DNA from: a virus
Length of the DNA stretch: 22,112 nucleotides
Reading direction: 5' to 3' (one strand)
IMG/VR virus record: IMGVR_UViG_3300017951_004320
Location: 1-22,112 of that record
Part shown: one piece after another, positions 277 to 18,740 of the stretch
How positions within the stretch are numbered: position 1 is the first letter of the stretch
Layout: every line of letters starts with the position of its first letter
Made by a program: the position numbers and the translations under genes
The notes under the pieces: generated by a model
Databases searched by the model: none
The model's input: the letters and a program-made list of their open reading frames with translations, nothing else
Told to the model about the DNA's origin: nothing

Positions 277-654
277 TTAAACAAGAACGATCCTGACTAA
301 ATTATTGGCCTTATTAGGAGCCTCTAGTGAGTAACCAAGTAGTTTATTAGTCGAGGGGGTAGTCGTTGCCCCTGCGGCGTTAGCTGCATATATTGCAGCA
401 CCAGCTGCACCAACTGCATTCGTTACCTTAACAACTGCACTACCTCCAGCACTGAACAATTGAATTGCTGCTGGCAAGTCTGATGAGCCTTGGTCAGCAT
501 CATGCAACAATACTCCGATAGCCTTAGCGCCATTCGCAGTAGCATTTACTCCGGCTTCTGCCACGCCTGAATTATTATCTACCTGAACAAGGTCACCTGC
601 GTCTTGATTAAAAGACGATTTTAGTGGAAGAGAAATTACTCCATTATGATTCAT
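277..654 (-). CDS. Capsid cement/decoration protein (DUF2190-like)
   Basis: This 125-aa protein is rich in Ala, Gly, Val and Asn and begins MNHNGVISLPLKSSFNQDAG. Its pattern is that of DUF2190 cement proteins: small beta-rich proteins that bind the outside of the capsid shell and stabilise it, analogous in role to lambda gpD. Typical elements are a GDLVQVDNNSGVAEAGV strand, an AKAIGVL strand and an Ala/Gly-rich stretch at about residues 68-95 (SAGGSAVVKVTNAVGAAGAA). It sits between the protease-scaffold and the capsid gene, the expected place. The start is set by a strong Shine-Dalgarno site (AAGGAGG) nine bases upstream that overlaps the stop codon of the preceding gene. Such a strong site fits a protein needed in large copy number. 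Confidence 0.85.
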   Translation of the reverse strand: MNHNGVISLPLKSSFNQDAGDLVQVDNNSGVAEAGVNATANGAKAIGVLLHDADQGSSDLPAAIQLFSAGGSAVVKVTNAVGAAGAAIYAANAAGATTTPSTNKLLGYSLEAPNKANNLVRIVLV

Positions 655-663
655 AATCTTTAT

Positions 664-670
664 CCTCCTT
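664..670 (-). promoter_or_regulatory. Strong Shine-Dalgarno site of the cement protein gene
   Basis: On the minus strand the sequence reads AAGGAGG, then nine bases, then ATG. It overlaps the stop codon of the protease-scaffold gene (669-671), which suggests translational coupling. It stands out because most other genes of the leftward module have weak or no such site. Confidence 0.8.
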
Positions 671-1775
671 AGTTAGCAGAAAAAACGCCTTGCTCGATAA
701 GCCATTGACGATGACCACGTGGGTCTTGTGCTACGGCTTGCTGAATTGCTTCGGCTTTATTTTTCGCATCTGAATGTTGCACTGAAAATTGAAACGTACC
801 TTCTTCGGCTTCAAATCCAAATAGTTCACCTTTACCGGGTTCGATAGGAGCTGCACCTGACTCAGCGAGTGCTTCACGAAGAAGTTCATTTTCCTCTTCA
901 AGCTCTTTAGCAAACTCAATAAGGGAATCAACTTTGTCATTTACACGCTCGAATTGATGCTCTTCGCGAATTTGTTTTTCCGCTTCTAAAGCACCTTGAG
1001 CTTTTTGCTCAAAATAATTCATGACGTCATCAATAGTTGATGGATCGGAGTATTCAACATCCTCCGCGCCTACCAACTCGGCGTCATCATACTCGTTGGA
1101 GTCATCTTCATATTCCTCAGAATAATCATCTTCCTCATAGCCATATTCTTCTTCCTGCTGCTCAAGTTCATCAAGAGCCGCGGCTTCTTCAATGGCATCA
1201 GCGAGATCGCTTTGAAAACCTTCGATTTCCGCCAAGCGGTCCTCGATACTCGAATTATCTACATTTGGATCGTCCATATCTAAGTTAATGTTGTCAACTT
1301 TTGCCTCAAATAACCCATCGGGATTAGCCGCTGGATCAGTTACTAAATCTACTGAAACTATGTTTTTACATCTGGCAAAAACCCTGCCATCTGCTCCAAC
1401 CTCTTTATCACCTTGAAATGCTACCGACAAACCTATTTGGCTCGGCATAGTTGAAAGTAATTCAATCGTGTGGTCATAATCTTTGTGAGTTTTTAATAGA
1501 TGTAGATCGCCCTTTAATTTCTCACCTTCTCTACGAATATTATTTACATGACCGAAAATAGCTTCCACACCTGTGCGGTGATTCAGCTTTGCTTTTACAC
1601 CGGGGTCTTTTGCTGATCGCAATGATGTTTCTAATTGATTAAGGGTCGTGTCATCTACTACCAAATCATGACCCTTGGCTGTACCTTTGGTAATTAGGCT
1701 TACACCTTTAATAACACCCGCATCTTGGTTTATGCTTCCTTCGCTCAGTCTATTAAAATATGTTATTTCACTCAT
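669..1775 (-). CDS. Prohead protease fused to scaffold
   Basis: This 368-aa protein has three parts. Residues 1-160 resemble assemblin-type (herpes/HK97-like) prohead serine proteases, with KAKLNHRTG (candidate catalytic His66), a GHVNNI strand, IGLSVAF (candidate nucleophile Ser117) and SVDLVTDPAANP (143-152). Residues 160-250 are very acidic and low in complexity. Residues 250-310 are predicted coiled coil and contain KVDSLIEFAKELEEE. A short tail ends in RQWLIEQGVFSAN. The acidic, helical C-terminal half is typical of an internal scaffold, which the protease would degrade with itself during capsid maturation. It lies just before the cement and capsid genes. The start has no Shine-Dalgarno site. 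The protease class is inferred from motifs; the third catalytic residue is uncertain. Confidence 0.85.
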   Translation of the reverse strand: MSEITYFNRLSEGSINQDAGVIKGVSLITKGTAKGHDLVVDDTTLNQLETSLRSAKDPGVKAKLNHRTGVEAIFGHVNNIRREGEKLKGDLHLLKTHKDYDHTIELLSTMPSQIGLSVAFQGDKEVGADGRVFARCKNIVSVDLVTDPAANPDGLFEAKVDNINLDMDDPNVDNSSIEDRLAEIEGFQSDLADAIEEAAALDELEQQEEEYGYEEDDYSEEYEDDSNEYDDAELVGAEDVEYSDPSTIDDVMNYFEQKAQGALEAEKQIREEHQFERVNDKVDSLIEFAKELEEENELLREALAESGAAPIEPGKGELFGFEAEEGTFQFSVQHSDAKNKAEAIQQAVAQDPRGHRQWLIEQGVFSAN

Positions 1776-1780
1776 TTTTA

Positions 1781-2515
1781 TTATTGTTTGAATTTTCTTC
1801 CATAAAGTGGATGCCCCTTCTCTCTCACATAATATCTGTCTGATTTCTGTGAAGCTCCACGATCTACTAAACCTCCTATATATTTCTTACCACCCTGATC
1901 TGCTGGTCTATATTTCTCCCTCTGTGCTCCTAGCTTTCCGATTAGATTATACTTTCGCAAACTAGCGCGAGGAAATAAAGTTGCAGCAAGAAGAGAGACT
2001 AAACCTTTGGCTTTGAAGCTTCTACCCTTTGACCTTCCCCTTTCCTTTATTATTCCCCCATCTTCAGGTGTTTTACTACGATACTCTTTTACAAATTTTG
2101 TTTTTGTGAGTTTAGCAACCTTTTCTCCATACTTACTATATCTTTGTTTATATTCAGGAATTTGAGAGTAAGGCTTAATTTCTCCTTTTTTATTTTTAAA
2201 TTTTGACCTCCACCTACCAAAAGCTTTCTCAAACTCTTGACCACTCTTGTATGGTTTTCCAGATTTATTTAGTGGTACTTTTCCAGACCTTCTAAATGCT
2301 TCTTTATCTGGTAATCCCTCACCTGCTTTTGCTCTAATTTCTTGATCAAGCCTGCGACCATACTCCTTCATCATGTCATCCGCAGCTTTTGTTCTCTGTC
2401 TGTCTTTAGCAGACTTTACATAAGCCCCGCCAGCCAGAGCCCCGCCAGCCACAGAAGCACCAGCAGTAAGTTTTGCTATGTCTTGCTTATCCTTATCTGA
2501 AAGTTCTTTGCTCAT
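1781..2515 (-). CDS. Basic protein of the head module, unknown function
   Basis: This 244-aa protein is not recognised. It is very rich in Lys and Arg. Near the N-terminus (about 16-33) it has one Gly/Ala-rich hydrophobic stretch, LTAGASVAGGALAGGAYV, which could enter or cross a membrane. A second weakly hydrophobic stretch, GLVSLLAATLFPRASL, lies at about 171-186. The rest looks extended and positively charged, with many Lys-Tyr and Lys-Gly pairs and a Tyr/Arg-rich C-terminus. Its ATG overlaps the stop of the preceding gene by four bases (ATGA), so it is probably translationally coupled. It lies between the portal and protease genes with two other basic proteins. An internal virion or DNA-binding role is possible, but this is inference from composition and position only. 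Confidence 0.75.
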   Translation of the reverse strand: MSKELSDKDKQDIAKLTAGASVAGGALAGGAYVKSAKDRQRTKAADDMMKEYGRRLDQEIRAKAGEGLPDKEAFRRSGKVPLNKSGKPYKSGQEFEKAFGRWRSKFKNKKGEIKPYSQIPEYKQRYSKYGEKVAKLTKTKFVKEYRSKTPEDGGIIKERGRSKGRSFKAKGLVSLLAATLFPRASLRKYNLIGKLGAQREKYRPADQGGKKYIGGLVDRGASQKSDRYYVREKGHPLYGRKFKQ

Positions 2516-3300
2516 TTTTCACCCTTATTACCTTTACCTTTGCCCCGATTACGACCTTGCTTGAGGTGTCCAAAAGTGCCAGTCCCCTGATTCGGGAAAT
2601 TTACCAGAGTTTCTTTAGTTGGAGGAGGAGTGCCGCTCGGTGGTTTTTTACCCGCCCCTTTCAAAATGGCTTTTTCTCTTGTGGTCAGAAATGGATTCAA
2701 GTTAGTTGTCAGTCTTCTAGGTCCTTTAGTAGTTTTCATCAGCTTGCCCCTCTTGCGACCCAGAGCGGTTAGATATGCCGCGAGGCCAGCGGTTCCAACC
2801 AGACCAGCACCCAGACCAGCGATCAATTTATTTTTAAAATCAACGGTCTCATGCCTGTGTTTCTTTCTACGCTCTCTTTTCTTTCTACCAGAGCGTTGTA
2901 TCTTTATACTGGAACTCGTGGGGTTACGTACTTGCCATCCGGCCCTACGAGCATCATCCAATTCATCAAATTCGATATCTACATCGAAATCATCAAGCTC
3001 AATGTCGTATCCAAGTTTTCTTAGATAAATGTTTCTTGCTCTATTGGCAAGCAAAACTTTATTTGCTAAAACAGGTCCACCTTTCATTGCCGCATAAGTG
3101 CCCCCCATTATAGCCATAGCTGCCACAGCATTCTGAAATGGCTTTTTCTCCCAAAATCTTTTTTTTCTGTTATTTGTTTTTACGCCCTTGGCTGCCTCAG
3201 CTAAATCTTTTGCCATTTCACCACCCTTACGAGCTTTGGAAACAATTTGTTTAGCCTTATTGTAGTTAGCCCTTGCGTCCTTGTATTGATCGTAATTCAT
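2512..3300 (-). CDS. Basic protein with two Gly/Ala-rich hydrophobic segments, unknown function
   Basis: This 262-aa protein is not recognised. Visible parts in order are: a charged N-terminal helix (1-50); a hydrophobic Ala/Gly/Met segment at 56-76; an acidic patch at about 98-117 (IELDDFDVDIEFDELDD); a very basic cluster at 138-150 (GRKKRERRKKHRH); a second Gly/Ala-rich hydrophobic segment at 157-179 (LIAGLGAGLVGTAGLAAYL); and a Pro/Gly/Lys-rich tail. Two glycine-zipper-like segments flanked by basic residues suggest a membrane-active hairpin. The gene starts 35 bases inside the end of the upstream gene and ends in an ATGA overlap with the next, so all three large basic genes form one coupled unit. 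An ejection or pilot protein is a reasonable guess, not shown. Confidence 0.75.
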   Translation of the reverse strand: MNYDQYKDARANYNKAKQIVSKARKGGEMAKDLAEAAKGVKTNNRKKRFWEKKPFQNAVAAMAIMGGTYAAMKGGPVLANKVLLANRARNIYLRKLGYDIELDDFDVDIEFDELDDARRAGWQVRNPTSSSIKIQRSGRKKRERRKKHRHETVDFKNKLIAGLGAGLVGTAGLAAYLTALGRKRGKLMKTTKGPRRLTTNLNPFLTTREKAILKGAGKKPPSGTPPPTKETLVNFPNQGTGTFGHLKQGRNRGKGKGNKGEK

Positions 3301-5020
3301 CTTTTTTCTTCTTCATATTATAAGCTTTTGTCAATCCATAGCCAGCAAGAGCACCTCCTAATAGTCTCAAAGCGCTTCCTCCATGAAGGGCTAAATTCAT
3401 TTTTCTTCTTGTTGATGCCTCTGGTTTTTTTAGCTTTCCTCCACGATCTTCTTCGATTTCCTTCCAGTGCAACCAGTCTCTATGTCTTTTAAGGGCTGCC
3501 AAAGCACCCGCAGTCGCTCCTGCTGAAGAACCTATGATTTCTCTTTTCGTTTCTTTCTTGAGTTCAAATTCCAACAGATCATCTAAATATTTCAGGTCAA
3601 ATTTAACTGGTCTTGTACCATCAATATCTTTCTCATTCACGGCCCTTTCCTGATTTTGTTTTTCTCTTAACCTTTTTAACAAGGTAGCTTTATTTCCCGA
3701 CACAGGGAGCCCCTGAGACCTTGCGGATTCTCTTAGTTCAGATACTGTAACTTTTCCCTGTCCACCAGATATAACTCCTTTGATTCTCGCGGCATCTAAA
3801 TCTCTTTGTGCTTTTTCTTCTTGTAGCTGTTTTATTTCGTTTTGCCTAACAGCCATTGACTCTTCATTAAGTCTTCGCTCTCTATCAAGATAGTCTTGCT
3901 CTTGTTGGCTTACAGATTGTGTTTTTATTTTTCCTTTTGAGTCCGCTCTGGATACAGTAAGATTTTCAGTACCATCACCTGTACTACTTCTTGTTGGGGT
4001 AGAAGGTGAGGCATTTCTAAATCTAGCCTGAGTTTGCTTATCTATTTCAATCTTAGCTCGCCCTGCGATTCTACCAAGGCTTTGAGATATTTCTTTCTCA
4101 GACAATCCCCTTTCTTTCATCCCAGCAATCTGACCAGCGGTTTTGGAATAAATTCTATCTTCGATTTCCTTACCTCCACCCTCTTGCGAAGCTAAAGTTC
4201 TTGCTATACGTCTAGCCGCAGCTTTTTGTGATTTTGTTAATGCGCCTATGTTTTTTACATTTGTTTGCGGTAAATTATTTTGTCCATCTTTATTTTTCTT
4301 ACCACCAAGTATGTTTTCTACTGTTCTTAAATATTTTTTTACCTCAGCAGGGGCTTCTTGATATTCACCTTGAGCATTTGGCGTTTTGGATACAGCTATC
4401 AAAGATTTACCATCATCTGATTTAATTATTCTAAATTTTTCCATGATAGCACTTTGCATCTGCAAAGCATCAGCTTTACTAACTGCATTACGATTGATTC
4501 TATCAAGCTTAGATTTGTATGCTTTATCAATGGGGGCTTTTGACGGAAGTCCATCTCCTTTGCCCTCCATCCCTTTTGCCCCAGTAGATTTAGGGCCTCT
4601 TTGTTCCGCTTTTATTTCTGACTCTATTTCTTTATCAGTAAAACCCGGCTGTTTATTTTGATCAAGCCTCTCAGATTCTCTTTTACTCGCATCTACTATT
4701 TGCGATACTTTTATATTTTTAAGACTAGGGTCTTGTTTTTGTAATGATCTTAAAGGTGGATACTTCGGCTCACCATTTTGAGTTTTTGCATCCGCTAACT
4801 GTTTGAACTTTTTTCTGATAGTTTCTTCATCATCATCTGATTTAAAAGCTACAGAGCCAACAGCAAAACCACCAACACCAGCCAATGGGCCAGCAATTCC
4901 AGTATCACCACCACCGCGTGTGTAATACTGTTTCAATGGACTTTTGTCCATTCCTTTCGTGGCTAACTGCGCCTTGCGATTGGTGAAGAAATCACGAATA
5001 TATTTCGAGAAGCCACGCAT
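3266..5020 (-). CDS. Large basic protein with a SAP-like DNA-binding motif, unknown function
   Basis: This 584-aa protein has a Gly/Ala-rich hydrophobic stretch near residues 41-59 (GIAGPLAGVGGFAVGSVAF) and a long Lys/Gln/Arg-rich, probably helical or disordered middle. At about 422-456 it has a SAP-type motif: VTVSELRESARSQGLPVSG followed by NKATLLKRLREKQ. SAP motifs are short helix-loop-helix DNA-binding elements. It then has LKYLDDLLEFELKKE (476-490), Gly/Ala-rich segments at 496-510 and 548-566, and a basic tail. Its ATG overlaps the portal stop by one base (TAATG), so it is coupled to the portal gene. The combination of DNA-binding motif, basic charge and hydrophobic segments fits an internal virion protein contacting packaged DNA. 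That role is inferred; the SAP assignment comes from pattern only. Confidence 0.75.
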   Translation of the reverse strand: MRGFSKYIRDFFTNRKAQLATKGMDKSPLKQYYTRGGGDTGIAGPLAGVGGFAVGSVAFKSDDDEETIRKKFKQLADAKTQNGEPKYPPLRSLQKQDPSLKNIKVSQIVDASKRESERLDQNKQPGFTDKEIESEIKAEQRGPKSTGAKGMEGKGDGLPSKAPIDKAYKSKLDRINRNAVSKADALQMQSAIMEKFRIIKSDDGKSLIAVSKTPNAQGEYQEAPAEVKKYLRTVENILGGKKNKDGQNNLPQTNVKNIGALTKSQKAAARRIARTLASQEGGGKEIEDRIYSKTAGQIAGMKERGLSEKEISQSLGRIAGRAKIEIDKQTQARFRNASPSTPTRSSTGDGTENLTVSRADSKGKIKTQSVSQQEQDYLDRERRLNEESMAVRQNEIKQLQEEKAQRDLDAARIKGVISGGQGKVTVSELRESARSQGLPVSGNKATLLKRLREKQNQERAVNEKDIDGTRPVKFDLKYLDDLLEFELKKETKREIIGSSAGATAGALAALKRHRDWLHWKEIEEDRGGKLKKPEASTRRKMNLALHGGSALRLLGGALAGYGLTKAYNMKKKKDELRSIQGRKG

Positions 5021-6588
5021 TATCTTGCTTGTTGCTGTTCTTCTTGGGCTTCTTGTTGTGGCTCTACCTGTTGTCCAGCTTCAGCCTGCTGTTGCTGCAT
5101 CATCATTTGTTGAAACTGCGAAATCATTTGAGTACCATTTTGCAATCTATTATTGATCAATTCAATAGGTACGCCCATCTCTTGAGCTAGGTTATTTAAG
5201 AATTGAACCTCTTTAGCAATTTTTGTTGCTTCTTCCTCAAAGTCCAAACCGAGTTCACCATAACAAGCTTGATGCGTTTTTAGTCCATTTTGGATCAAAG
5301 AAATATTCGCACTTACTTCATTACCAAGGTCAGCAGTTATGTAAGAGCCAAATTGCCATCTTCCCAGCTTATATGAATTCGGTCTGTTTGGAGCCATTGG
5401 CAACTCACCCATAGCAATAGCTCTACGAAGAACAGCATTTTTTATTGGGTCAAGTACTCGCTCAGTAAGATTTTGTTGATGCTTATCAAAGGCTCTCCTT
5501 GCTTGCTCAACTTCAAGCCTAGCCGTAACTCCACCAAATTGTGTCATGTCCCAGACAAAAGCATATGGTAAGTTCAAACCATTAGCCATTTCACGAACAA
5601 GCGTAGAAACAAAACCATTGAAAGTGGGACTTGGGCGATTCATAGTCTGAAAAGGTGTGACCGACTCGCCGGGCTGTAGTCTTATAATTTTACCGGGATC
5701 AATTCTTTCTAGTTTTTTCCCTTCGGTATCTTTTGTTACTTTTGAAGCCCACTTGTCGGGACCTTGGTCAGCCTTTGTTATTACTCCCGCATGTGATGCC
5801 GCCCATTTTACAGCCTGCTTCTCCATTTTAAGGAGTTCATATAAATCACGAGCATGAGGTATAGCAGTTTCAAATGCCGTCACTCCACGATATTGATCGG
5901 CCCTCAATGGATCGAAATAATGAACAAAAACATTTGCTGGTATGTCAGTGCCATTCGTATACTGACCATGAATGCTTCTCTTAAATACCTTGTATGAAAC
6001 TGGCGCCCCATAGTCATCTATTTTAACACCAGATATATAGTTCTCTTTTGGCTTACTAGCTTCATGTGGATGACCAATTCTATCAGCCTCAATTGATTGT
6101 AGTTTAAGTTTGCCATCACGGTTTACCAATAAAAATGCAAAATCCCCATCTCTTCGCATGCTCATGTGCGCGAGCTGTACTAACTGTCTGAAACTATGCC
6201 TTCCAGTAATATCGCATGTTTTAGTCCAATTGTTCCAATATTGCTCATAAATGGAATCGGTATATGGATCACCTGTACCTGCTTGATATTTAACCTGTCC
6301 ACAAACATACATTGATTCCTTATTTAGAATGCTTTTAAAAAAGCTATAGTTTTGAACTAGATTCCTAGCCTCACTCATGAGTTTTATTCTGTCACGTTGG
6401 TTTGACAGAGACTCCGAAGATGAGTTAGTGGTTATTGATGGTAAAGGTTTACCAGCTCTTCCCGGATTTGCCGCATCATATGAAAACTCCAATAAATCGC
6501 GATAGTGTTGCCTACGAAGAGCAAACTCAGGTGCAATAAATCCTATAGCTTTATCAAAAAACGTTGTCTTTTTATTCGATTCCTTCAT
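5020..6588 (-). CDS. Portal protein (lambda gpB family)
   Basis: This 522-aa protein matches the lambda-family portal pattern. It has N-terminal FALRRQHYRDLLEFSYDAA, then RNLVQNYSFFKSILNKESMYVCG, then SMRRDGDFAFLLVNRDGKLKLQSIEADRI, and the well-conserved region with FVHYFDPLRADQYRGVTAFE and LYELLKMEKQAVKWAASHAG. The portal forms the dodecameric ring at one capsid vertex through which DNA is packed and ejected and to which the terminase docks. The C-terminus is Gln-rich (QQMMMQQQQAEAGQQ), which is common in this family. The frame is open further upstream, but I chose the ATG at 6588 because the product then starts MKESNKKTTFFDKAIG, as usual for portals; the gpW-like gene ends 17 bases inside this start. 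The next gene begins at a TAATG overlap. Confidence 0.93.
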   Translation of the reverse strand: MKESNKKTTFFDKAIGFIAPEFALRRQHYRDLLEFSYDAANPGRAGKPLPSITTNSSSESLSNQRDRIKLMSEARNLVQNYSFFKSILNKESMYVCGQVKYQAGTGDPYTDSIYEQYWNNWTKTCDITGRHSFRQLVQLAHMSMRRDGDFAFLLVNRDGKLKLQSIEADRIGHPHEASKPKENYISGVKIDDYGAPVSYKVFKRSIHGQYTNGTDIPANVFVHYFDPLRADQYRGVTAFETAIPHARDLYELLKMEKQAVKWAASHAGVITKADQGPDKWASKVTKDTEGKKLERIDPGKIIRLQPGESVTPFQTMNRPSPTFNGFVSTLVREMANGLNLPYAFVWDMTQFGGVTARLEVEQARRAFDKHQQNLTERVLDPIKNAVLRRAIAMGELPMAPNRPNSYKLGRWQFGSYITADLGNEVSANISLIQNGLKTHQACYGELGLDFEEEATKIAKEVQFLNNLAQEMGVPIELINNRLQNGTQMISQFQQMMMQQQQAEAGQQVEPQQEAQEEQQQAR

Positions 6589-6865
6589 TACTATTTCTAT
6601 TTGCGAAAATTCCCAATGAATCACCAGTTTCAGAGAAGTCAACATAACTTGATTCTTGATAATCTCTGCCTGATCTTTCTCTACGAATTTCGCTTACTGC
6701 TCTCAGTCTTTCTTCTATTGTTGTGATTGACCTTTGATAATTTTTTGAACCTACGGCTTGTGAAAGAAATATATTTTGTGACTCTTTTTTCAAGAAATCG
6801 AATTCTGCTGTCAAATCCTCATCTGTATAATCTCGATAAATTATTTTCCAGTTTGTCGTGGCCAT
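6572..6865 (-). CDS. gpW-like head-tail joining protein
   Basis: This 97-aa protein starts MATTNWKIIYRDYTDEDLTA. It has the gpW-like pattern of a short strand followed by helices, with the segment DLTAEFDFLKKESQN and a helix with ITTIEERLRAVSEIRRE. Lambda gpW (68 aa) binds the portal after packaging and helps stop DNA leaking out before tail attachment. This copy has an extra, probably disordered tail of about 30 residues. The gene lies directly before the portal gene and overlaps it by 17 bases, as in lambda-type modules. The ATG at 6865 was preferred over a TTG at 6871. Its start is only 13 bases from the start of a divergent gene at 6879, so the two promoters or ribosome sites must share sequence. 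Confidence 0.8.
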   Translation of the reverse strand: MATTNWKIIYRDYTDEDLTAEFDFLKKESQNIFLSQAVGSKNYQRSITTIEERLRAVSEIRRERSGRDYQESSYVDFSETGDSLGIFANRNSNEGIE

Positions 6866-7319: not shown

Positions 7320-7825
7320 GTACAATTACAGTAGATGCAAAAATAGTGGACACAAATGTAAATAAAATTCGCGCTTATCATGAAAATGCTATGCGCTCAA
7401 TGACTGACTCGATAAAGGATGTTGCTCAAGCTGGACTTTTGTTGGCAGAAGAGAGAGACTCCCGTCGCGGCTCATTCAGCACTTGGGTCGAAGAAAACTT
7501 ACCCTTCACAAGAAAGACCGCATACAAATATATAAAAGTGGGACAACTTGTAGAAGCTGGATTAAACTTAGAGGACTATGATTCCGTAAGGCAAGCCTTA
7601 CTCACCCTGAAAACAAATGAAAAAGGTGAAATAGAAGAGAAAAAGGTTAAAGACAAAAGAGTCGAAAGTATACCCGGTTTGTGCCTTAAAATTGAAAAAG
7701 CTCTTGATGATGCTCAAGAAGAAAGCCCCATACATTCATGGGATGAAGGTCAGGTTCGGGCTATTATAAGAGCACTTGAAAGTTTGATAGAAAGAAAAAC
7801 AAGCCTTCAGGATCACTTATCCTAA
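7316..7825 (+). CDS. DUF3102-like protein
   Basis: This 169-aa protein has, at about residues 25-78, the pattern of DUF3102 proteins: a helix (SMTDSIKDVAQAGLLLAEE), then RGSFSTWVEENLPFTRKTAY and KYIKVGQLVEAG. DUF3102 occurs in many phages and mobile elements beside DNA-binding or replication genes; its biochemical role is not well defined. The second half is charged and helical (EKGEIEEKKVKDKRVES), with a C-terminal helix RAIIRALESLIERK. It is coupled to the helix-turn-helix gene upstream by an ATGA overlap. Its 3' end overlaps the 3' end of the convergent large terminase gene by nine bases, so no room exists for a separate terminator between them. Confidence 0.7.
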   Translation: MSTITVDAKIVDTNVNKIRAYHENAMRSMTDSIKDVAQAGLLLAEERDSRRGSFSTWVEENLPFTRKTAYKYIKVGQLVEAGLNLEDYDSVRQALLTLKTNEKGEIEEKKVKDKRVESIPGLCLKIEKALDDAQEESPIHSWDEGQVRAIIRALESLIERKTSLQDHLS

Positions 7826-9538
7826 GCACCCCGTCACAAGCCCCGCCATAACTAGCATACACTCGCAGTCGAAGTAGTGGTTGGCTCTTCTGGGTTTATT
7901 AACCCATTTATACCTTACCTCCCCATAAGCGTTTACTATTTCTTCGCGACGCTCTGCTTTCATTTGGGCTAGGTAATCCTGAATTATATTGTCAGGTAAT
8001 GTCCAATCTGGCCCAATTCCTTTTATATACTCTGATAGCAAATCCTTGATATTTGGATTTGAATACAAGAACAATCGCACGGGTCTGAATTTGCCTTGAT
8101 CAACAGTTCCTAAAGCCGGATCTATTTCGCTGTCTTTCCACACCTGTTTTATACCATCTACGATGTATCCATTATCTCTATCCTCACCCTTTGCTGGTTT
8201 CCAAGCATAGTCTGTTCGCATAACCTCATTGTAAACGGCAGATGTTTTAAACCCAGAATCAATAATGACGTCATCTGGATCAACTCCAAGTTCTTTTGCC
8301 TTTTCTCTCAAATCCTCAAAATCAGGAACTTCTCCACAATCAAAAAGCCTAGATGAGCCATTTGGGCCAAATGCCCTACATACATAATACAGCCTATCCT
8401 TTTGAACATCCGCAGATAAGAATTTACGATAATCGGATGGTGGTCTGTCCAGAAGCTTATAATCTGACTTCCTTTGTTGTAACCAATCCTTATCATTGTA
8501 TTTTAGTCTATCCTCCCAAGGTTGACCCAAGGACTCGCAAATGAATGCTTTTAATGGTTCAGGATCACCCCAACTTAGCGCTTTTTTTGATGTCAAAAAT
8601 TCTTCGACTAAATCTCTCCATTTTACCCAAGTAGGAAGTAGAGCATTCCATGTATATGATTTTTTTGACTCTGGAGCTGATGGATTTAAAGACACCCAAT
8701 CACCCTTAGTAAGGTTTCTTCTCTCGAAAGGGGTGTCGTGCGTTTCATGCGAACAAAATGGACACTCAAGTCTTATGGTTTTAGAAAGAATATCAAAGTT
8801 ATATTGACCGTCTGGCTTAGTGGTTTCATTTACATCCCATTTCATGTACTCCCAATTCAAAGGATGCTTTTTCCCGCACTTAACGCAGTCTACGTGCCAG
8901 ACATATTGATTACCCAACAAAAACTGTTGGTGAACCGAATCATGTTCTTGACCGGGTGTGGACACAATTACCTGTCTAGCATTCCAAAATGTTCGCGTTC
9001 TTTTAAGAACCATAGGCAAAGCGCCGGGCGGCCAGTTTCTTACCTCATCCAAAAGTAACCACCTACGAGGTTTTGACTGCAATTTAGATGGAGCATTTGA
9101 TCCCACGACCTCTAAGGTCATACCGGGAAAATAAATCTCCCTACTTTTTGCAAGTCGGTTAGACTGTGGAATCTTGTCAGACACGGGCGGACACGCGCGA
9201 AGGGAGGGCATCAAGCGCTCTGTCGCAAACTTGAGGGCTTCATCTTCATTTGAGGTAACCCACATACATGGTCCGGGGTCTTCAGAAATCAGCCAACTAA
9301 GAAGTGCGAGCATTGTTTCTGTTTTGGCGCTTTGCGCCGAACACATTATGGATATTTGCTTGATCTTGTTGTCAGCAAAATCCTCCATAAACTTGCGAAC
9401 CCAAGGTGAATTATCAGACCTCCAATTACCGGGAAAAGGAGAAACTGCAACCCTAAAATTATCTTCAGCCCACTCCCAAGGAGTTCGCCGATCTGCGGGT
9501 TTCCAAGCGACCCTTGCGGTCTTTTGGACTATATTCAA
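7817..9538 (-). CDS. terL: Terminase large subunit (lambda GpA family)
   Basis: This 573-aa protein carries the packaging ATPase and DNA-cutting nuclease. The N-terminal ATPase part has a deviant Walker A, CSAQSAKTE (66-74), in place of the classic GKT loop, as is usual in GpA proteins, and a Walker B RRWLLLDEV (158-166). Two cysteine pairs, CVKC (218-221) and CPFC (259-262), look like the zinc-binding insertion of this family. The nuclease part has acidic residues in three expected strands: FLSADVQKD (Asp377), DDVIIDSG (Asp427) and HYFDCECM (Asp557). The length and order match full-length GpA proteins, so it appears intact. It follows a small basic gene by two bases. Its 3' end meets a convergent gene rather than the gpW gene, which is unusual for this module. 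Confidence 0.95.
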   Translation of the reverse strand: MNIVQKTARVAWKPADRRTPWEWAEDNFRVAVSPFPGNWRSDNSPWVRKFMEDFADNKIKQISIMCSAQSAKTETMLALLSWLISEDPGPCMWVTSNEDEALKFATERLMPSLRACPPVSDKIPQSNRLAKSREIYFPGMTLEVVGSNAPSKLQSKPRRWLLLDEVRNWPPGALPMVLKRTRTFWNARQVIVSTPGQEHDSVHQQFLLGNQYVWHVDCVKCGKKHPLNWEYMKWDVNETTKPDGQYNFDILSKTIRLECPFCSHETHDTPFERRNLTKGDWVSLNPSAPESKKSYTWNALLPTWVKWRDLVEEFLTSKKALSWGDPEPLKAFICESLGQPWEDRLKYNDKDWLQQRKSDYKLLDRPPSDYRKFLSADVQKDRLYYVCRAFGPNGSSRLFDCGEVPDFEDLREKAKELGVDPDDVIIDSGFKTSAVYNEVMRTDYAWKPAKGEDRDNGYIVDGIKQVWKDSEIDPALGTVDQGKFRPVRLFLYSNPNIKDLLSEYIKGIGPDWTLPDNIIQDYLAQMKAERREEIVNAYGEVRYKWVNKPRRANHYFDCECMLVMAGLVTGCLG

Positions 9539-9540
9539 GC

Positions 9541-10023
9541 TTATCTACGAAACAGTCTTTTTACGCCGCCAAGGAGTTTGCTTTTATCTCTTTTCATAAC
9601 CCCCATTGCTCTGCCAGCCAGACCTTTCATTCCACCTGTGTTTCCGAAATTCTTTTTTACCTGACCTAATTTGTTGCCAATTCCTTTGGTATCTTTCACG
9701 CCAGACATTAGTCCTCCACCCTTAAGAGAATCACCTCGCGCGGCTGATGCAAGTCCATAGGCTCCGGCACCCAGCGCACCTACCCCAGCTACTTTCGCGG
9801 CAGTCCCCAGAGCCGAACCTTCTTTCTTCTTTTGTGGTTGAGCGTAAAACTCAAAGCTATCATCCATTTTCGCTTCAAGTGAAATCAAGTGATCCATGTT
9901 AGCACTCATACCATATTGTTTTTGTATTTTCTTTTTCTTCATAGAAAGCTTACGCAAATCGTGCTTATATCTTGCCAAACCCTCTTTTGTGTAAGGGTAC
10001 TTCTTGTTTCCTATCTGTGGCAT
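9541..10023 (-). CDS. Small basic Gly-rich protein with shared LIxLxxKM motif
   Basis: This 160-aa protein is not assigned to a family. It starts MPQIGNKKYPYTKEGLARYK; N-termini of this kind (short basic start, then YPYT) occur on small proteins of other phages, from memory. Residues 46-63 read LISLEAKMDDSFEFYAQP, a motif that also appears in the next two genes upstream. It is followed by a Gly/Ala-rich hydrophobic stretch at about 72-95 (LGTAAKVAGVGALGAGAYGL) and a glycine-rich basic tail ending KRLFRR. The gene lies two bases upstream of the large terminase gene and is in the same transcription unit. The composition suggests an internal virion or membrane-active protein. That is inference; the motif repetition is directly visible. 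Confidence 0.75.
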   Translation of the reverse strand: MPQIGNKKYPYTKEGLARYKHDLRKLSMKKKKIQKQYGMSANMDHLISLEAKMDDSFEFYAQPQKKKEGSALGTAAKVAGVGALGAGAYGLASAARGDSLKGGGLMSGVKDTKGIGNKLGQVKKNFGNTGGMKGLAGRAMGVMKRDKSKLLGGVKRLFRR

Positions 10024-10032
10024 GACTAAAAA

Positions 10033-10431
10033 TTACTGTTTTCTCATTTGGCTAAGATAATCTTTACGCTTGTCCGATCCCATTGCTTCGCCTGATCGAT
10101 CAAATACCTTTTTATTCTTACGTCTCTTGTTTTCGCGCTCCTGCTTCTTAGCATGTTTTGCTTTGTTTTTCTGGCTCTTCAATGCCCTTTTACTTAAAGG
10201 TTTTCCTTTTCTAAGGGCTAACAAAGTGCCTGCTATTCCAAGCCCTACTCCTGCTGTACCCCCTATTCCTGCCCCAAGTCCAGCCGCTGCTCCATGTCCA
10301 ATCGATCCAGTAATAGACCGTGGTTTCTCTGGTTGAGCTGCAAATTCGATTTCTTCGGCGAGTCTTTCTCCCCGTAGGCGTATTACTTCATCGAGTTTAG
10401 CATCAAGTTCTATAAATCTTTGTAAGTCCAT
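10033..10431 (-). CDS. Small basic Gly/Ala-rich protein with shared FIELDxKLDE motif
   Basis: This 132-aa protein is not recognised. It opens MDLQRFIELDAKLDEVIRL and continues to EEIEFAAQP (26-34), matching in two pieces the motif seen in the two neighbouring genes. Residues 43-72 form a long Gly/Ala-rich hydrophobic stretch (GSIGHGAAAGLGAGIGG and onward to LLAL). The rest is extremely basic, with runs such as KKQERENKRRKNKK. A TTG at 10452, directly abutting the previous stop codon, is an alternative start adding seven residues. I prefer the ATG at 10431, because it places the shared motif at the very N-terminus. The architecture of motif, hydrophobic stretch and basic tail is the same as in the 160-aa neighbour, so the two are probably diverged relatives. 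Confidence 0.75.
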   Translation of the reverse strand: MDLQRFIELDAKLDEVIRLRGERLAEEIEFAAQPEKPRSITGSIGHGAAAGLGAGIGGTAGVGLGIAGTLLALRKGKPLSKRALKSQKNKAKHAKKQERENKRRKNKKVFDRSGEAMGSDKRKDYLSQMRKQ

Positions 10432-10452
10432 ATCTAATATTTTTTTTGTCAA

Positions 10453-11316
10453 CTACTTCTTAATTATTTTCGCCAAATTGACGGCATTCATACCTAAAAC
10501 CTTTAACAATTTTCCTATACTCATTTTGGAAATCATAAGCTCTGTTCTCTTCAGACCTCTGCTTATACCCTTGTTTGATAGGGTGTTTCTCATTTTTCGC
10601 GCAAGTTCTTTTTTGGCGTGATCTGGTAGATCAGATACCCTTCGATAAGATTGCGTTTCAGGCAAACCCACCCTCTCACTAGGGCTTACACTACCAGCCT
10701 TAGAGCCTTTTCTAAATTCTCCAATTTTTCCTGTGACCCGTGGGTGACGCGGGTTTTGTTTCTTGGCTTGGCTTGGGCTTAGGTCAAGTTCTTTTCTTTT
10801 CTTGGATTTGATAGCTGGATTACCACCCTCTACAGCAGTTGTTTGTTTGACCTCCCTGACTTGTGCCTTTCTTTCTTTTTCTCCCTTTTTTGTTCCATAA
10901 TTAGGGTCTCCACGTTTGGGTCTATCTCTTTTTTTACCTTTACTCTTAGCTTCTTTTATCTTCTTTTTTTCAATAAGTCTTTTCGCATATTCAGTTGGCT
11001 TAGGTTTTGTTTTTTCTTCTATGGGATTTGTATTTTTAGCCTCAGTTAAATCTTTTGGCAGAAACTTTCCGCGCTTTCTGCGATCAAATCTTGATCTTTC
11101 GTCATCGCTCAATGGTTTTGGTGGGGTTGCAAATTCTAACTTTCTATTGAGTTCTATAAGCCTACCCAATAAATGATCATTCTTATCGAAGTTTTCTGAA
11201 AACTCTTTAGCTTCTTTTTTAAGTAGGCATTTACCCTTAGACATACAGGCAACCTTACTTTTACAATAAGCGCACCTGCGAAAAGAACCTGCGTCTTTTA
11301 AAGCTGGAAAATCCAT
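10453..11316 (-). CDS. Basic protein with Cys cluster and shared LIELNxKLEFA motif
   Basis: This 287-aa protein is not recognised. The N-terminus has four cysteines, C15, C18, C24 and C30 (CAYCKSKVACMSKGKC), spaced so that they could bind one zinc ion. Residues 53-66 read LIELNRKLEFATPP, the motif shared with the two following genes. From about 70 to 240 the chain is Lys/Arg/Pro-rich and probably disordered. The C-terminus ends in an amphipathic stretch, MSIGKLLKVLGMNAVNLAKI. It is the first gene after the small terminase, 16 bases downstream, and abuts the next gene. It lacks the long Gly/Ala-rich segment of its two relatives. Because it lies among packaging genes, a role in virion assembly is likely, but no specific function can be read. 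Confidence 0.72.
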   Translation of the reverse strand: MDFPALKDAGSFRRCAYCKSKVACMSKGKCLLKKEAKEFSENFDKNDHLLGRLIELNRKLEFATPPKPLSDDERSRFDRRKRGKFLPKDLTEAKNTNPIEEKTKPKPTEYAKRLIEKKKIKEAKSKGKKRDRPKRGDPNYGTKKGEKERKAQVREVKQTTAVEGGNPAIKSKKRKELDLSPSQAKKQNPRHPRVTGKIGEFRKGSKAGSVSPSERVGLPETQSYRRVSDLPDHAKKELARKMRNTLSNKGISRGLKRTELMISKMSIGKLLKVLGMNAVNLAKIIKK

Positions 11317-11332
11317 GTTAAATGGAGTTATG

Positions 11333-11899
11333 TCAACTACCTGAATGAAGAGATTCTAAAGCTTCATCAATAGATTCTTTAATTCTTTGTTCAGCCTCTG
11401 GAGCATCCATGCCTATGACAATGGGCGCAAGCTTGGATGGTATTGAGAGTAATGTAGTCTTTGCTTCAGTAACCATATCACCCACCCATCGTACAACATC
11501 TTCATTTAGAGTATAATCTCCACGCTTTGTTTTGATCTCAAACTCTATCTTTTCGCACATCAGTTTTAAGTGTCTAATTTTAAGATCATGGAGGTCAAGC
11601 TCCTCATCTATGTCTTTCTTCTGTTGACCCTTAACCCATATTTTCGTGGCACTTATGTCCCATTTTCCATTTGAAAGTGGCGGGGGGAATCCGGCTTCCT
11701 TTCTCCACCTTTGTATTGTTTTTCTATCTACACCTAATACTTTCGCCAGCTCAGTTTGATTCTTCGCATACTTGTCGTGTTTTTGAACTTTTATATATTG
11801 ATCAGCTAGAATTTGGTGAGCCTTTTCCAAGTCTTCATCAGATACATTTTTACCTGTATCTATGTCAGACATGATCTTTTCAGCCCATTTTATAGTCAT
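11333..11899 (-). CDS. terS: Terminase small subunit (Nu1-like)
   Basis: This 188-aa protein has a winged helix-turn-helix at about residues 47-90: NQTELAKVLGVDRKTIQRW, then KEAGFPPPLSNGKWDISATK. This matches the DNA-recognition domain of lambda Nu1 and related small terminases, which bind the packaging start site and load the large subunit. A helical segment follows (HDLKIRHLKLMCEKIEFEIK), and the C-terminal part, TEAKTTLLSIPSKLAPIVIG with a final helix EQRIKESIDEALESL, is typical of small terminases. It is the first gene of the leftward head operon and is divergent from the right module. It is separated from the large terminase by three extra genes, whereas the two subunits are usually adjacent. 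Confidence 0.88.
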   Translation of the reverse strand: MTIKWAEKIMSDIDTGKNVSDEDLEKAHQILADQYIKVQKHDKYAKNQTELAKVLGVDRKTIQRWRKEAGFPPPLSNGKWDISATKIWVKGQQKKDIDEELDLHDLKIRHLKLMCEKIEFEIKTKRGDYTLNEDVVRWVGDMVTEAKTTLLSIPSKLAPIVIGMDAPEAEQRIKESIDEALESLHSGS

Positions 11900-11904
11900 A
11901 CCTA

Positions 11905-11933
11905 TATATGATTTTTTTATTAAATAGGATCAA
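11905..11933 (-). promoter_or_regulatory. Weak candidate promoter of the leftward head operon
   Basis: On the minus strand TTGATC (11933-11928) is followed after 17 bases by CATATA (11910-11905). This is the best -35/-10-like pair close to the small terminase start. The -10 match is poor, and the transcript would begin almost at the ATG, so it is a tentative call; a phage-specific promoter type is equally possible. Confidence 0.25.
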
Positions 11934-12027
11934 GCTAATTACGCTTTTTTGTTCAAAGTGGCATGGCTTTAACATAGGTAAACTTATTAAATTTAGTGTG
12001 TTGCAACCTATTGATTATCAACATCTT

Positions 12028-12068
12028 AAAAAAATGTTATCGACATTCGGCGAAAATTTTCGTAACAT
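12028..12068 (-). terminator. Candidate leftward terminator upstream of the small terminase
   Basis: Read on the minus strand, ATGTTACGA pairs with TCGATAACAT (one bulged base), followed at once by seven T residues (A run 12028-12034 on the plus strand). The loop contains half of the CGAAAATTTTCG palindrome. It could stop leftward transcripts coming from the right module before the head operon. The loop is long, so the call is moderate to weak. Confidence 0.35.
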
Positions 12069-12077
12069 ATTGTCTTT

Positions 12078-12331
12078 CCTTGGGAGAGGTGTGCCCAAGG
12101 GGGCGGACGCCCGAACGCGCACAAGCGCACAACGTGCGTCCGTGAGAGCCAACCGATGAACAATCGGGAGCATGCACCTGAGCGTGGCGCACAAGCGTAC
12201 ACGACAGGTGCGTGTGCTCACTAGACCACCACCCTATTGGGTTACACCCTTGTGTATGAGCGCATACATACATGCGCCCACCTGTGAGGATCACAGAGAA
12301 TTTTCTAGCGTACACACACCTGTGTGTGCGC
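12078..12331. repeat. Cluster of consecutive inverted repeats (possible structured leader RNA or origin)
   Basis: The following inverted repeats can be read in order. CCTTGGG/CCCAAGG (12078-12084/12094-12100). CGGACGC/GCGTCCG (12104-12110/12136-12142), which competes with CGCAC/GTGCG inside it. CCGAT/ATCGG (12153-12157/12163-12167). CATGCACCTG/CAGGTGCGTG (12171-12180/12205-12214, one G-T pair) with an inner CGTG/CACG. TGTGTATG/CATACATA (12251-12258/12263-12270, one G-T pair). CTGTG/CACAG (12282-12286/12292-12296). A near-perfect 24-base palindrome at 12308-12331. They fill the GC-richer half of the divergent region, directly upstream of the first rightward gene. No T-tract follows any of them. 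A structured 5' leader, a small RNA or a replication origin are the options. Confidence 0.6.
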
Positions 12332-12390
12332 ACAAACAAAAAACAAAACCACGCGCCCGTGAACAAATAAGCGGGTGCGCATACATACAC

Positions 12391-12897
12391 ATGAGCGTAA
12401 AAGCCAAAACACAAAACCCAAAGTTCAACATGCTCGACGCGCTTGAGCGCGCAGGCATTGCGTCCAAGAGCGCGAAAGCTGCAATAATCGATATGCCTGT
12501 CAAGGACGCACGCGCCCTTGCACGTGCACAGGAGCCTTCAGGCGCGATAGCCGAGCCAAAGGAGCTTATCAGCATCGGTAACTACGTGCTCTCGGATGAG
12601 CGCACGTCCCTGTGCGTGATCGCTGGTGAGTTCGAGTTCGACCAAAACGTTGTACGCGCCCTTGCCCAAATGCGTCGTGAAGCGCACGAAGGCGTGAAGC
12701 CCGAACGCACAGAGGAGAAGGTCGAGCACTCCTCGCTCGTGGGCGAGGAAATCGATGCCTTGCGCAAGGACAGGCGTGAAAAATCCAAGGCCAAGCGCGC
12801 GCTCAAGCGTGAAGCCGAAGCCTCAGAATCGCGTGAGCATGGGGGTCTGGGTCACGCGCTTGCATGGGTCTTCACGTTCGGAAACTTCGGACGCTAA
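12391..12897 (+). CDS. Hypothetical charged protein, first gene of the rightward module
   Basis: This 168-aa protein is not recognised. It starts MSVKAKTQNPKFNMLDALER. The N-terminal half is helical and Ala-rich (AGIASKSAKAAIIDMPVKDA), the middle has a short strand-like region (LISIGNYVLSDERTSLCVIA), and a Lys/Arg/Glu-rich helix follows (DRREKSKAKRALKREAEASE). The C-terminus turns hydrophobic (HALAWVFTFGNFGR). The frame is open back to 12172, but that part lies in the inverted-repeat cluster, so I start at the ATG at 12391, which follows the CA-type leader ATACATACAC. A terminator lies 18 bases after its stop, so it appears to be a single-gene unit with a long structured leader. Codon choice is GC-richer than in the left module. 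Confidence 0.65.
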   Translation: MSVKAKTQNPKFNMLDALERAGIASKSAKAAIIDMPVKDARALARAQEPSGAIAEPKELISIGNYVLSDERTSLCVIAGEFEFDQNVVRALAQMRREAHEGVKPERTEEKVEHSSLVGEEIDALRKDRREKSKAKRALKREAEASESREHGGLGHALAWVFTFGNFGR

Positions 12898-15194: not shown

Positions 15195-15430
15195 GTAGAA
15201 AACAACACAACATAAGAAGAAAACTAGCAAAGCGTGAAATGTATGAAGCTGAACTTGAAGCTGAATTGCGACGCGCTTTGCACACACACACAGAAAGTGA
15301 AGCTCAAGAAGTGATTGATCGAGAGCTACGCGAAAATGAACAACAAAACATATACAAATCACATAACGATCGTGCGTGTTTCACGCCTGATCACCCAAAC
15401 CACAACACATACACACACAAAAACATATGA
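15191..15430 (+). CDS. Hypothetical small charged helical protein
   Basis: This 79-aa protein begins MSRKQHNIRRKLAKREMYEA and is a single long charged helix in pattern (ELEAELRRALHTHTESEAQE), probably coiled coil. Its C-terminal tail (PDHPNHNTYTHKNI) is encoded by the CA-repeat leader of the next gene. AAGGAGG lies upstream of the ATG, which overlaps the previous stop (ATGA). The stop overlaps the start of the CobS-like ATPase gene (ATGA). It may be a small partner of the ATPase, judged by position only. Confidence 0.6.
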   Translation: MSRKQHNIRRKLAKREMYEAELEAELRRALHTHTESEAQEVIDRELRENEQQNIYKSHNDRACFTPDHPNHNTYTHKNI

Positions 15431-16707
15431 AGATTGAATTAGATCCAAAGGACATCCTGTCCTCACGCGCATTCCAGCAAGCCATGTCTGACCTTAAAGC
15501 TGAGGTTACGGCGAATACCGACAAGGCTGTACGAGATGTACGCACTAAAGTTGCTGAAGATGGTGGCGCGGCATTGCAAGAAGAAGTCCAAAAAACTCTC
15601 CTTGGCGCACCATTCATCCAAGCATTCGCCGACCTAGTCGTGGACAAAGCTCGCACTGCAGGTATCACATTGCCAACGCTCAAGGCAACCATAGGGCGTA
15701 AGCTACGTGGGTCACCCGCATCGAAAGCGATCAATACCTATGCTCGCCCAATGCAAGGCAAGTACGAGGGCAAGCGCGCGGTTGCGCTGTTCGGTGACAA
15801 GGGTAGTGGTAAGACGCATGAGGCTTATCATGAAAGCATACGCCTGTATGGAGAAGACAATACGCACATGATTGACTGTCATGGTGACGTCATGCCTGAA
15901 GCATTGTTTGGGCATCCATGCGCAGAGGGTGATGGAACTCCAGCACTCGGCTGGCGTGATGGTCTAATCACGAAAGCCTTCAGACGCCAAAATGATACAG
16001 GTGAGCCACAAATGATAGTGTTTGATGAGTTTTTGCAACTCCCAAGCACGACACTCAATGCACTCAAGTCCTTACTCGGTGGTATGGGCAATGATTATGT
16101 ATGCACAACAGGTAAGCCGACAGGAAAGGTTGGATCAGCTCGTGGAGTCGAGCAACTACATTGCCCAATCGAAATGATAGGCTTCGTCGTCACATCAAAT
16201 GTAGGTGGAAGGTATGAAGTTCGAGACTTGGATGATGCGATGCGTTCAAGGCTCAAGATTGTACACATGGATTGCAAAATCACCGACATCAAGCGTGTAC
16301 TCAAGCCCGTGATTGAGCAACGTCAGGACGCCTATGGTTGGTCTGACGAGGCAAGTAATTGGCTGATGGGGGCGCTCACATCACTACACAGCGACACAAA
16401 AAGGTTTGCTAATAATCATGAGCTTGAAACATATGCCGGTACTCGTGAATTGTTGGGTATTCTCACGCAGCTTGAGCATCCTGCCGAAATACTGAATGTA
16501 TTTGACGAGCGCTCGGTTTTGTGTGAGCGTCCATACTTTGTCGCCGTGGATGACTTCGGGCATCCCAACCCCGACCAGAAGAGACAGTTCAAGGCGCTTG
16601 GCAAAAACTTGCAAGAGAAAGCACAAGCGTTCAAGAAAGATATCGCACAGACCGAAGACGACAAGGCTAGATTCGACAGCTTGTTACGTCATGTCATCAT
16701 TGGATAA
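15427..16707 (+). CDS. CobS/MoxR-like AAA+ ATPase
   Basis: This 426-aa protein has a helical N-terminal region (1-90) followed by an AAA+ domain. Walker A is GDKGSGKT (123-130), Walker B is MIVFDE (196-201), sensor 1 is TSN (256-258), the arginine finger region is MRSRLKIVHMD (272-282), and a sensor 2 candidate is GTRELLG (338-344). The DEFLQLPSTTLNALKSLLGG segment is like the MoxR/CobS branch. CobS is the ATPase subunit of aerobic cobaltochelatase, but phage relatives occur without the CobN chelatase subunit, as here, so magnesium- or cobalt-chelation is unlikely. A remodelling ATPase working with the VWA protein encoded downstream is the better reading. The start follows a CA-repeat leader with no Shine-Dalgarno site. 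Confidence 0.88.
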   Translation: MKIELDPKDILSSRAFQQAMSDLKAEVTANTDKAVRDVRTKVAEDGGAALQEEVQKTLLGAPFIQAFADLVVDKARTAGITLPTLKATIGRKLRGSPASKAINTYARPMQGKYEGKRAVALFGDKGSGKTHEAYHESIRLYGEDNTHMIDCHGDVMPEALFGHPCAEGDGTPALGWRDGLITKAFRRQNDTGEPQMIVFDEFLQLPSTTLNALKSLLGGMGNDYVCTTGKPTGKVGSARGVEQLHCPIEMIGFVVTSNVGGRYEVRDLDDAMRSRLKIVHMDCKITDIKRVLKPVIEQRQDAYGWSDEASNWLMGALTSLHSDTKRFANNHELETYAGTRELLGILTQLEHPAEILNVFDERSVLCERPYFVAVDDFGHPNPDQKRQFKALGKNLQEKAQAFKKDIAQTEDDKARFDSLLRHVIIG

Positions 16708-16725
16708 CACACAACACACACATAT

Positions 16726-18015: not shown

Positions 18016-18740
18016 TGGGATACAACATAGAAATACGTAACGGTCGGATTTATTACTATGGGCACGACAAGCCATACGAAAAAGCCGACTTTTGGGAATC
18101 CGAAGGGAACTTCATAAATGCAACAGCGAAAGCATTCGCGCGTGTGCTTACGGGCAAGGACAAATCCGCAGATCGTAGAGGGCATTGGGGGTCAGGTGGT
18201 CTACACCTGAACAACATTACCAAGCTCAACGCGTCTGAGGGTTACTTCCACAAAAAGCGTAAGCACGGTGGTAAACCCCATGTGTTCGTAATGATGGACG
18301 CTTCAGGTTCTATGTCTGATGGTCACTTCACGCATGGCTTACCTATCATGGCTGCATTCAATGAGTTGGCTGTACAAAAGAAAATACGATTCGACTTCGT
18401 ACTTACAGGCAACAAGAAGTCTTGGTGGAACAAATCCAAGCCTGTAGCGCGTGGCTTGTGGGGTCTAATGGAATGTAGGGCAGGTTGTGAGTCATTCGCA
18501 TACAACCTACCCAAGTACAAAAAGATATGGAAAACAGCCTCAACATTCATCTGTTACACGGATGGTGCGATCACGGATGGTGACATATCACCATCATTGT
18601 GGCGTAGCGAGGGCTTGACCTGTATCGGCGCATACATTGGCTCAGACAGGCAACGCAAAGCCATGAGTAATTGGTTTGACCACACAATCGCCGCAAGTAG
18701 TAAAGAGCTTCTCGCATCACGGCTCATCAAATTAGTATGA
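18015..18740 (+). CDS. VWA-domain protein (CobT C-terminal-like)
   Basis: This 241-aa protein has a von Willebrand factor A domain with a complete metal-ion-dependent adhesion site: VFVMMDASGSMSDG (DxSxS at 95-99) and a later YTDGAITDGD with Asp183. The segment before it, DRRGHWGSGGLHLNNITKLN and then FHKKRKHGG, corresponds to the region in CobT-type proteins that precedes the VWA. In MoxR/CobS systems the VWA protein binds the AAA+ ring and passes on its remodelling force to a substrate. The ATG overlaps the stop of the CobT-like N-terminal gene (TGATG), and no Shine-Dalgarno site is seen, so translation is probably by re-initiation at about equal amounts. The family reading is firm; the phage function is unknown. 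Confidence 0.88.
   Translation: MGYNIEIRNGRIYYYGHDKPYEKADFWESEGNFINATAKAFARVLTGKDKSADRRGHWGSGGLHLNNITKLNASEGYFHKKRKHGGKPHVFVMMDASGSMSDGHFTHGLPIMAAFNELAVQKKIRFDFVLTGNKKSWWNKSKPVARGLWGLMECRAGCESFAYNLPKYKKIWKTASTFICYTDGAITDGDISPSLWRSEGLTCIGAYIGSDRQRKAMSNWFDHTIAASSKELLASRLIKLV

Follow-up and report, generated by a model that had tools for sequence, protein, structure and literature searches.

The window analyzed here, the whole 22,112-base stretch of an IMG/VR record, comes from an uncultivated tailed phage and carries a head module on the minus strand (Table 1). In order, this module comprises the genes for the terminase small subunit (terS), p287, p139, p160, the terminase large subunit (terL), an adaptor-like open reading frame (ORF) of 99 aa, and the portal, after which it continues with p584, p262, p244, a protease-scaffold fusion named p368, and a cement protein; terL and the adaptor-like ORF are separated by two small genes on the plus strand. 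Longer relatives extend beyond this region with a gene for a putative shell protein and with genes of the tail type, one of which encodes a protein of 1,100-1,200 aa that by position and size would correspond to a tape measure protein. The terL gene is co-oriented with terS and the portal gene in the window (7817-9538), L003, and L007, and it lies on the strand opposite both in L005 (9134-10855), L006 (10001-11713), and L016 (10001-11755), where the gene order is unchanged and two regulator-like genes keep their strand. Directly after terL, the relatives L047 (5122-9436), L048 (2454-6768), and L049 (5955-10269) have a five-gene cassette, with one gene sulfotransferase-like and another glycosyltransferase-like. 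On the plus strand of the window, positions 15427-18740 hold, as judged by eye, a MoxR-like AAA gene and then a two-gene CobT/VWA-like set, and relatives repeatedly carry similar genes.

TerL relatives at 37-46% identity occur in Akkermansiaceae and Verrucomicrobiales metagenome-assembled genomes (MAGs) and in one further bacterium, and the family is present in 26 of 388 genomes of Verrucomicrobiota, the sole phylum sampled this way. The TerL of the first lytic verrucomicrobial phage, P8625, clusters with those of verrucomicrobial prophages (PMC4642752). Given these TerL data, the host phylum of this phage lineage is probably Verrucomicrobiota.

Table 1. Head-module genes and tag sites in the window
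Feature	Position	Strand	Evidence or property
Capsid cement/decoration protein	277..654	(-)	PF09956 E 1.1e-7
p368, prohead protease N-domain fused to acidic coiled-coil scaffold	669..1775	(-)	alignment; fold match
p244, basic, Gly/Ala-rich segment near N terminus	1781..2515	(-)	net charge +36; no tag
p262, basic, hydrophobic Gly/Ala segment	2512..3300	(-)	net charge +36; no clear tag
p584, basic, SAP (DNA-binding) domain, after portal; candidate cargo	3266..5020	(-)	SAP E 4.1e-8
Possible tag in p584: YLDDLLEFELKKE, then Gly/Ala-rich segment	3551..3589	(-)	core match, held-out count
Portal protein, lambda family	5020..6645	(-)	PF05136 E 6.4e-52; relatives
Terminase large subunit, GpA family	7817..9538	(-)	PF05876 E 2.4e-40, PF20454 E 1e-29
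p160	9541..10023	(-)	net charge +23
Class B tag of p160: DHLISLEAKMDDSFEFYAQP	9835..9894	(-)	HMM E 2.2e-9
p139, 132 aa from inner ATG (TTG start: 139 aa)	10033..10452	(-)	net charge +16
Class A tag of p139: QRFIELDAKLDEVI, RLRGERLAEE, IEFAAQP in order	10330..10422	(-)	HMM E 5.7e-10
p287, N-terminal four-Cys domain, weak tag, long Lys/Arg-rich region	10453..11316	(-)	net charge +44
Weak tag of p287: LIELNRKLEFATPP, residues 53-66	11119..11160	(-)	position confirmed
Terminase small subunit	11333..11899	(-)	phrog_57 E 2.8e-20

The initial annotation had noted a short motif common to p287, the 132-aa protein, and p160, and its strings proved exact in sequence and residue numbers. The protein p139 is laid out as the tag, a Gly/Ala-rich stretch (68% G+A over 25 aa), and a basic tail; in its 132-aa form, FIELDAKLDE spans residues 6-15 and IEFAAQP residues 28-34. 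In p160, a basic N terminus precedes the tag, with residues 46-63 reading LISLEAKMDDSFEFYAQP, and a Gly/Ala-rich stretch and a basic tail follow; the L003 orthologue carries LISLEAKMDSTFEFYAQE. The p287 copy lies where it had been annotated and is kept in L003, but strong conservation in its family did not hold, as the tag is altered in L005/L006 and lost in the L007, L008, L049, L050, and L015 orthologues. Outside its closest relative, this copy is weak. An N-terminal domain with four Cys is conserved in the p287-family proteins of L007 (7737-8402), L015 (6630-7304), L011 (8392-9054), and L049 (2524-3354), in which an SPAGN element also recurs.

A looser version proposed in p584 matches the core of the tag in the window; because it reads LLEF there and the L003 counterpart reads FIFQFDRKK, we regard it as no more than suggestive. 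The p584 homologue of L003 (14326-15974) is split into two overlapping frames of 489 and 75 aa, by either a contig frameshift or a real split. The function of p262 is suspected to be related to that of the tagged carriers. In the portal, the segment LEF[AS]YDAA (LLEFSYDAA in the window) was rejected as a tag because distant portals keep YDAA or YNAA without LEF; it presumably is the lambda portal family's own region.

The tag is clearer in relatives with 65-90% TerL identity than in the window. It comprises about 16 helical residues, with the consensus [RK][LI]IxLxxxLDxx[IL]E[FL] and the core L[DE]xxφE[FL], and in this lineage of uncultivated marine phages it recurs on many strongly basic proteins that are otherwise unrelated. 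Each genome has one to four tagged small, basic, usually Gly/Ala-rich proteins between terS and terL. More basic proteins with the tag are encoded next to the portal gene and, in longer genomes, in a second late cluster at the distal end, so that the tagged family extends beyond what the window contains. The p139 family forms class A, in which a spacer separates the helix RIIxLDxxLDxVI from the φ-E-[FL] downstream; the helix is kept in 12 lineages and φ-E-[FL] in 11 of these 12, 7-14 residues downstream (shuffle mean, 1.66). In class B, comprising p160 and others, helix and φ-E-[FL] overlap as LDxxLEF. A shorter form also exists: L036 and L039 have SLExIFEL[AG] in their second late cluster, and L005/L006 have MSLDSIFEF next to the portal. 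Tag copies between terS and terL lie mostly within the first 30 residues, and internal positions are seen in p160 (44), L011:9379 (58), L036:14531 (122), and p584 (478). The AlphaFold model of p139 has a single helix over residues 2-38 that includes IEF, with a pLDDT of ~75-83 over residues 1-30 and low confidence for the Gly/Ala-rich stretch after the helix.

The tag nearly always keeps its Glu, which is where a gp21-like enzyme would cut, and such an enzyme appears to be encoded in the same module. In the protease domain of p368, His66 and Ser117 are invariant in the alignment. When the p368 model was compared to the PDB with Foldseek, the top three matches were T4 gp21 (5jbl; probability 1.00; E 7e-3 to 1.8e-2), with herpesvirus proteases ranking next; model confidence is moderate (mean pLDDT 67.9) and the fold-match E values are modest, and the matches agree mutually and with gene position. 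As modeled, the N-terminal domain of p368 has the fold of prohead proteases of the T4 gp21/herpesvirus assemblin type. The gp21-family proteases of T4, phiKZ, and SPN3US cleave short x-x-E motifs on the C-terminal side of the Glu (PMC5694885). The motif could be a cleavage site of this protease and nothing more (φ-x-E, then F/L), with no docking and an incidental helix; the near-invariant Glu, the gp21-like fold, and the conservation of φ-E-[FL] whatever the spacing all fit such a role. However, the helix RIIxLDxxLD is conserved to the same degree as the Glu, from which 7-14 residues separate it in class A, and a few copies have Gln or Ala in place of Glu (FIFQF in the p584 counterpart of L003, IAF in L007). 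Because Glu-specific relatives of the protease require few other residues (PMC9026906), a cleavage site alone would leave the helix unexplained, and we consider this reading unlikely.

Within the scaffold part of p368, the initial annotation had listed another loose copy, SLIEFA (KVDSLIEFAKEL), in the coiled coil. This copy is found in the window and in one 80%-identical orthologue only and is absent from the other orthologues, and we therefore rejected it as coincidental. About 45 residues before the C terminus, the scaffolds of p368 and its relatives have a conserved GTF[E/Q]F[SA]xQ that looks like the last part of the p160 tag (SFEFYAQ), with Glu and Gln interchanging between lineages. As a candidate for a further cleavage or docking site, it has Gln for Glu in the window and L012, and the region in outgroups has a general F-[ES]-x-x motif only.

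Consecutive tagged proteins are most numerous in L015 (four, of 102, 180, 107, and 101 aa) and L007 (four, of 151, 147, 122, and 142 aa), and other relatives have three (L016) or two (L017 and L011). The tag is exchanged in front of the DUF6321 domain (AWTRKxGKRxSGGLNQKGVESYR...), which sits behind three versions of it: RIIALEEKLDDALEFSSA in L016, SSLENIFELG in L036, and LSALDSLLEFGSA in L113. In these relatives' proteins, as distinct from those of the window, the domain was identified as Pfam PF19846, with 65.4 bits for L016:11846 and 62.5 bits for L036:12658 (cut-off, 28.5). Other tagged proteins have DUF5872 and an HELGH motif (L036:14531-15640; a tblastn search of this protein against phages gave no match) or an HELIH motif (L039:2-625), and judging from these HExxH motifs, both are possibly Zn-peptidases riding as cargo. 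Another carrier, L036:13456, passes the Gly-zipper_YMGG cut-off, and in L016:13245, a class A tag of the p139-family type is fused to the p287 family's four-Cys N-domain. At the level of sequence, the tag acts as an exchangeable module on unrelated basic proteins.

DUF6321 is also shared with T4-like marine phages. In the cyanophage T4-GC0119 proteins, it forms the C terminus, accompanied by DUF5872 in two proteins examined, and the genes lie beside or between the terminase genes (between gp16 and gp17 in S-SM1, directly before gp17 in S-SM2 and P-TIM68); the annotation of S-P4 lists its copy as a structural protein. T4-GC0119 proteins differ from the carriers described here in having several small domains per chain and no LDxxLEF tag. 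In the T4-like marine virus AG-345-E15, a DUF6321 protein starts with MKTFEQFTEG, compared to MKTFKEFTST at the start of T4 IPI. Thus, one cargo domain is found with both types of signal: behind the new tag in this lineage and, in AG-345-E15, on a protein whose start is T4-style.

The tagged proteins might instead be fast-diverged tandem paralogues, in which the tag is not a mobile signal but what remains of a single ancestral protein. Most tagged genes lie next to one another and encode small, basic, Gly/Ala-rich proteins with the tag near the N terminus, and some of them likely arose by duplication. Yet tags of the same type occur on proteins with DUF6321, with DUF5872 plus HExxH, or with HELIH and on p584-type proteins, also well inside the chain and in clusters far apart, and the L016 fusion joins the domain of one family to the tag of another; we give common descent of this kind little chance. 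Similarly improbable, in our view, is that the helix functions outside the head by docking to another complex, such as the terminase, portal, tail, or a host factor (e.g., a membrane target). Carrier genes do flank the terminase genes, Gly/Ala stretches could insert in membranes, and one carrier passes the Gly-zipper cut-off mentioned above; however, the second tag cluster lies far from the terminase genes, and the shared DUF6321 and the gp21-type protease indicate the head.

Recurrence of the tag was quantified in two ways. A tag hidden Markov model (HMM) of 20 positions, made from the window tags and related tags, gave matches with E values of 1e-6 to 1e-10 per record; many of these are the model's own training rows, and unused instances match equally well (L007:9275-9643, E 1.4e-9; L017:9430-9735, E 1.0e-7). 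In this profile search, of a kind that the initial annotation had proposed, copies were found near the terminase genes of relatives, nearly all between terS and terL. The pattern [LMI][DE]xx[FLIM]E[FL] was then counted in 577 non-redundant clade proteins, with basic proteins defined by a net charge above 6%. It was present in 22 of the 142 basic proteins (reversed pattern, 0; shuffle expectation, 0.34), and the other 435 proteins gave chance values (4 core, 4 reversed, 4.6 expected). Because the core pattern was written after seeing the terS-terL proteins, the count was repeated with basic proteins outside this interval, yielding 12 core matches, 0 reversed, and 0.25 expected, and none of 500 shuffles gave as many as observed; 2 of the 12 carriers are near-duplicates of others (L005/L006), and this hold-out is not fully blind since some short forms had been seen beforehand. 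HMM matches and core counts in basic proteins bear out the earlier idea of a reusable tag on otherwise unrelated basic proteins. Although the motif is short and was picked by eye in one window, the held-out counts and per-genome E values down to 1e-10 leave next to no room for a chance or compositional artefact.

Outside the clade, two degenerate DNA scans of all IMG/VR yielded chance matches only and no further clade, and the tag HMM detected no tag in lineages with TerL at ≤56% identity and no match in three MAGs with related TerL. By pattern, the ≤56% lineages have the variant LQELNEMLDAQLTEF in L066 and L052 and ARIENLIEFALPK in L066; the latter is found in a 689-aa basic protein (10417-12486) between adaptor and portal that has an HNH-like N terminus (HNH_3 E 0.037). 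A related-locus search with p139 alone retrieved a near-identical contig only, and a literature search found no direct publication on this tag or on DUF6321.

We favor, at a probability of about 0.58, the reading that the motif serves as a short and reusable signal for prohead loading that combines helix docking with a probable cut after Glu and whose basic cargo is ejected with the DNA. According to this model, the amphipathic helix RLIxLxxxLD would dock its carrier inside the assembling prohead, on either the scaffold part of p368 or the inner shell surface. The φ-E-[FL] element, at the tag end or a variable distance after it, would probably be cut after Glu by the gp21-like protease at head maturation; the case for obligatory cleavage is weakened by the internal copies and by the few copies with Gln or Ala for Glu. 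Small and very basic proteins, most of them Gly/Ala-rich and some bearing DUF6321, DUF5872, or HExxH, would make up the cargo, and the basic Gly/Ala-rich remainder would stay with the DNA in the head, exit with it, and help it across the envelope or act in the host.

The proposed signal resembles the capsid-targeting sequence (CTS) of T4, carried by IPI, IPII, IPIII, and Alt, in being short, mostly near-N-terminal, and common to unrelated basic proteins, in having a Glu at its end, and in the presence of a gp21-fold protease in the head module. One CTS trait, a single short signal on several unrelated proteins of one phage, is evident in L015 and L007 and in the DUF6321/DUF5872 carriers, although the internal location of these carriers is predicted. 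In T4, targeting residues and cutting residues of the signal are separable (PMC9026906), resembling the two-part class A tag. By contrast, the core pattern has no match in the T4 head proteins ipI, ipII, ipIII, and Alt, and the tag differs from the T4 signal in length and pattern. The tag is a longer, leucine-rich helix with more carriers per genome, and it is often internal rather than strictly N-terminal; in addition, the protease here is fused to the scaffold, and the portal is of the lambda type and the terminase of the GpA type. The initial proposal of a T4-like loading signal thus gains from the gp21-fold protease, the near-invariant Glu, and the cargo domain shared with T4-type phages, but not from similarity to the T4 signal sequence, and because this sequence test fails, we class the tag as working like the T4 CTS and not as a member of its family. 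A broader reading, to which we give somewhat less than even odds, is that a lineage independent of T4 evolved a modular loading code, made of a helical address tag and a protease site, that can be joined freely to membrane-active, DNA-binding, and putative peptidase (HExxH) proteins, which would be packaged in the head and delivered into Verrucomicrobiota.

Other loading and ejection systems are more distant. In phage P1, N-terminal residues of DarB are the signal for loading into the head (PMC9024508); the P1 Dar proteins are without a common consensus, unlike the many proteins that carry the tag here. In phiKZ and SPN3US, many head proteins are cut after Glu (A-x-E or S-x-E) by a gp21 relative and most of them are ejected, but these are jumbo phages with long propeptides and no short helical tag. 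The P22 and T7 ejection proteins are likewise hydrophobic or Gly/Ala-rich, internal, and released with the DNA, a functional analogy only: they have no known shared tag, and Pfam scans of p139, p160, and tagged relatives found no ejection-protein homology (P22_gp7, E 0.027, not significant).

To our knowledge, experiments have established short signals for capsid loading in only a handful of phages (T4 and P1). A consensus tag on unrelated proteins allows candidate head cargo to be listed from sequence alone, making the internal proteins of uncultivated phages predictable, and it gives the DUF6321 and DUF5872 families a testable function. The tag would also offer a new address label for packing proteins into phage heads.
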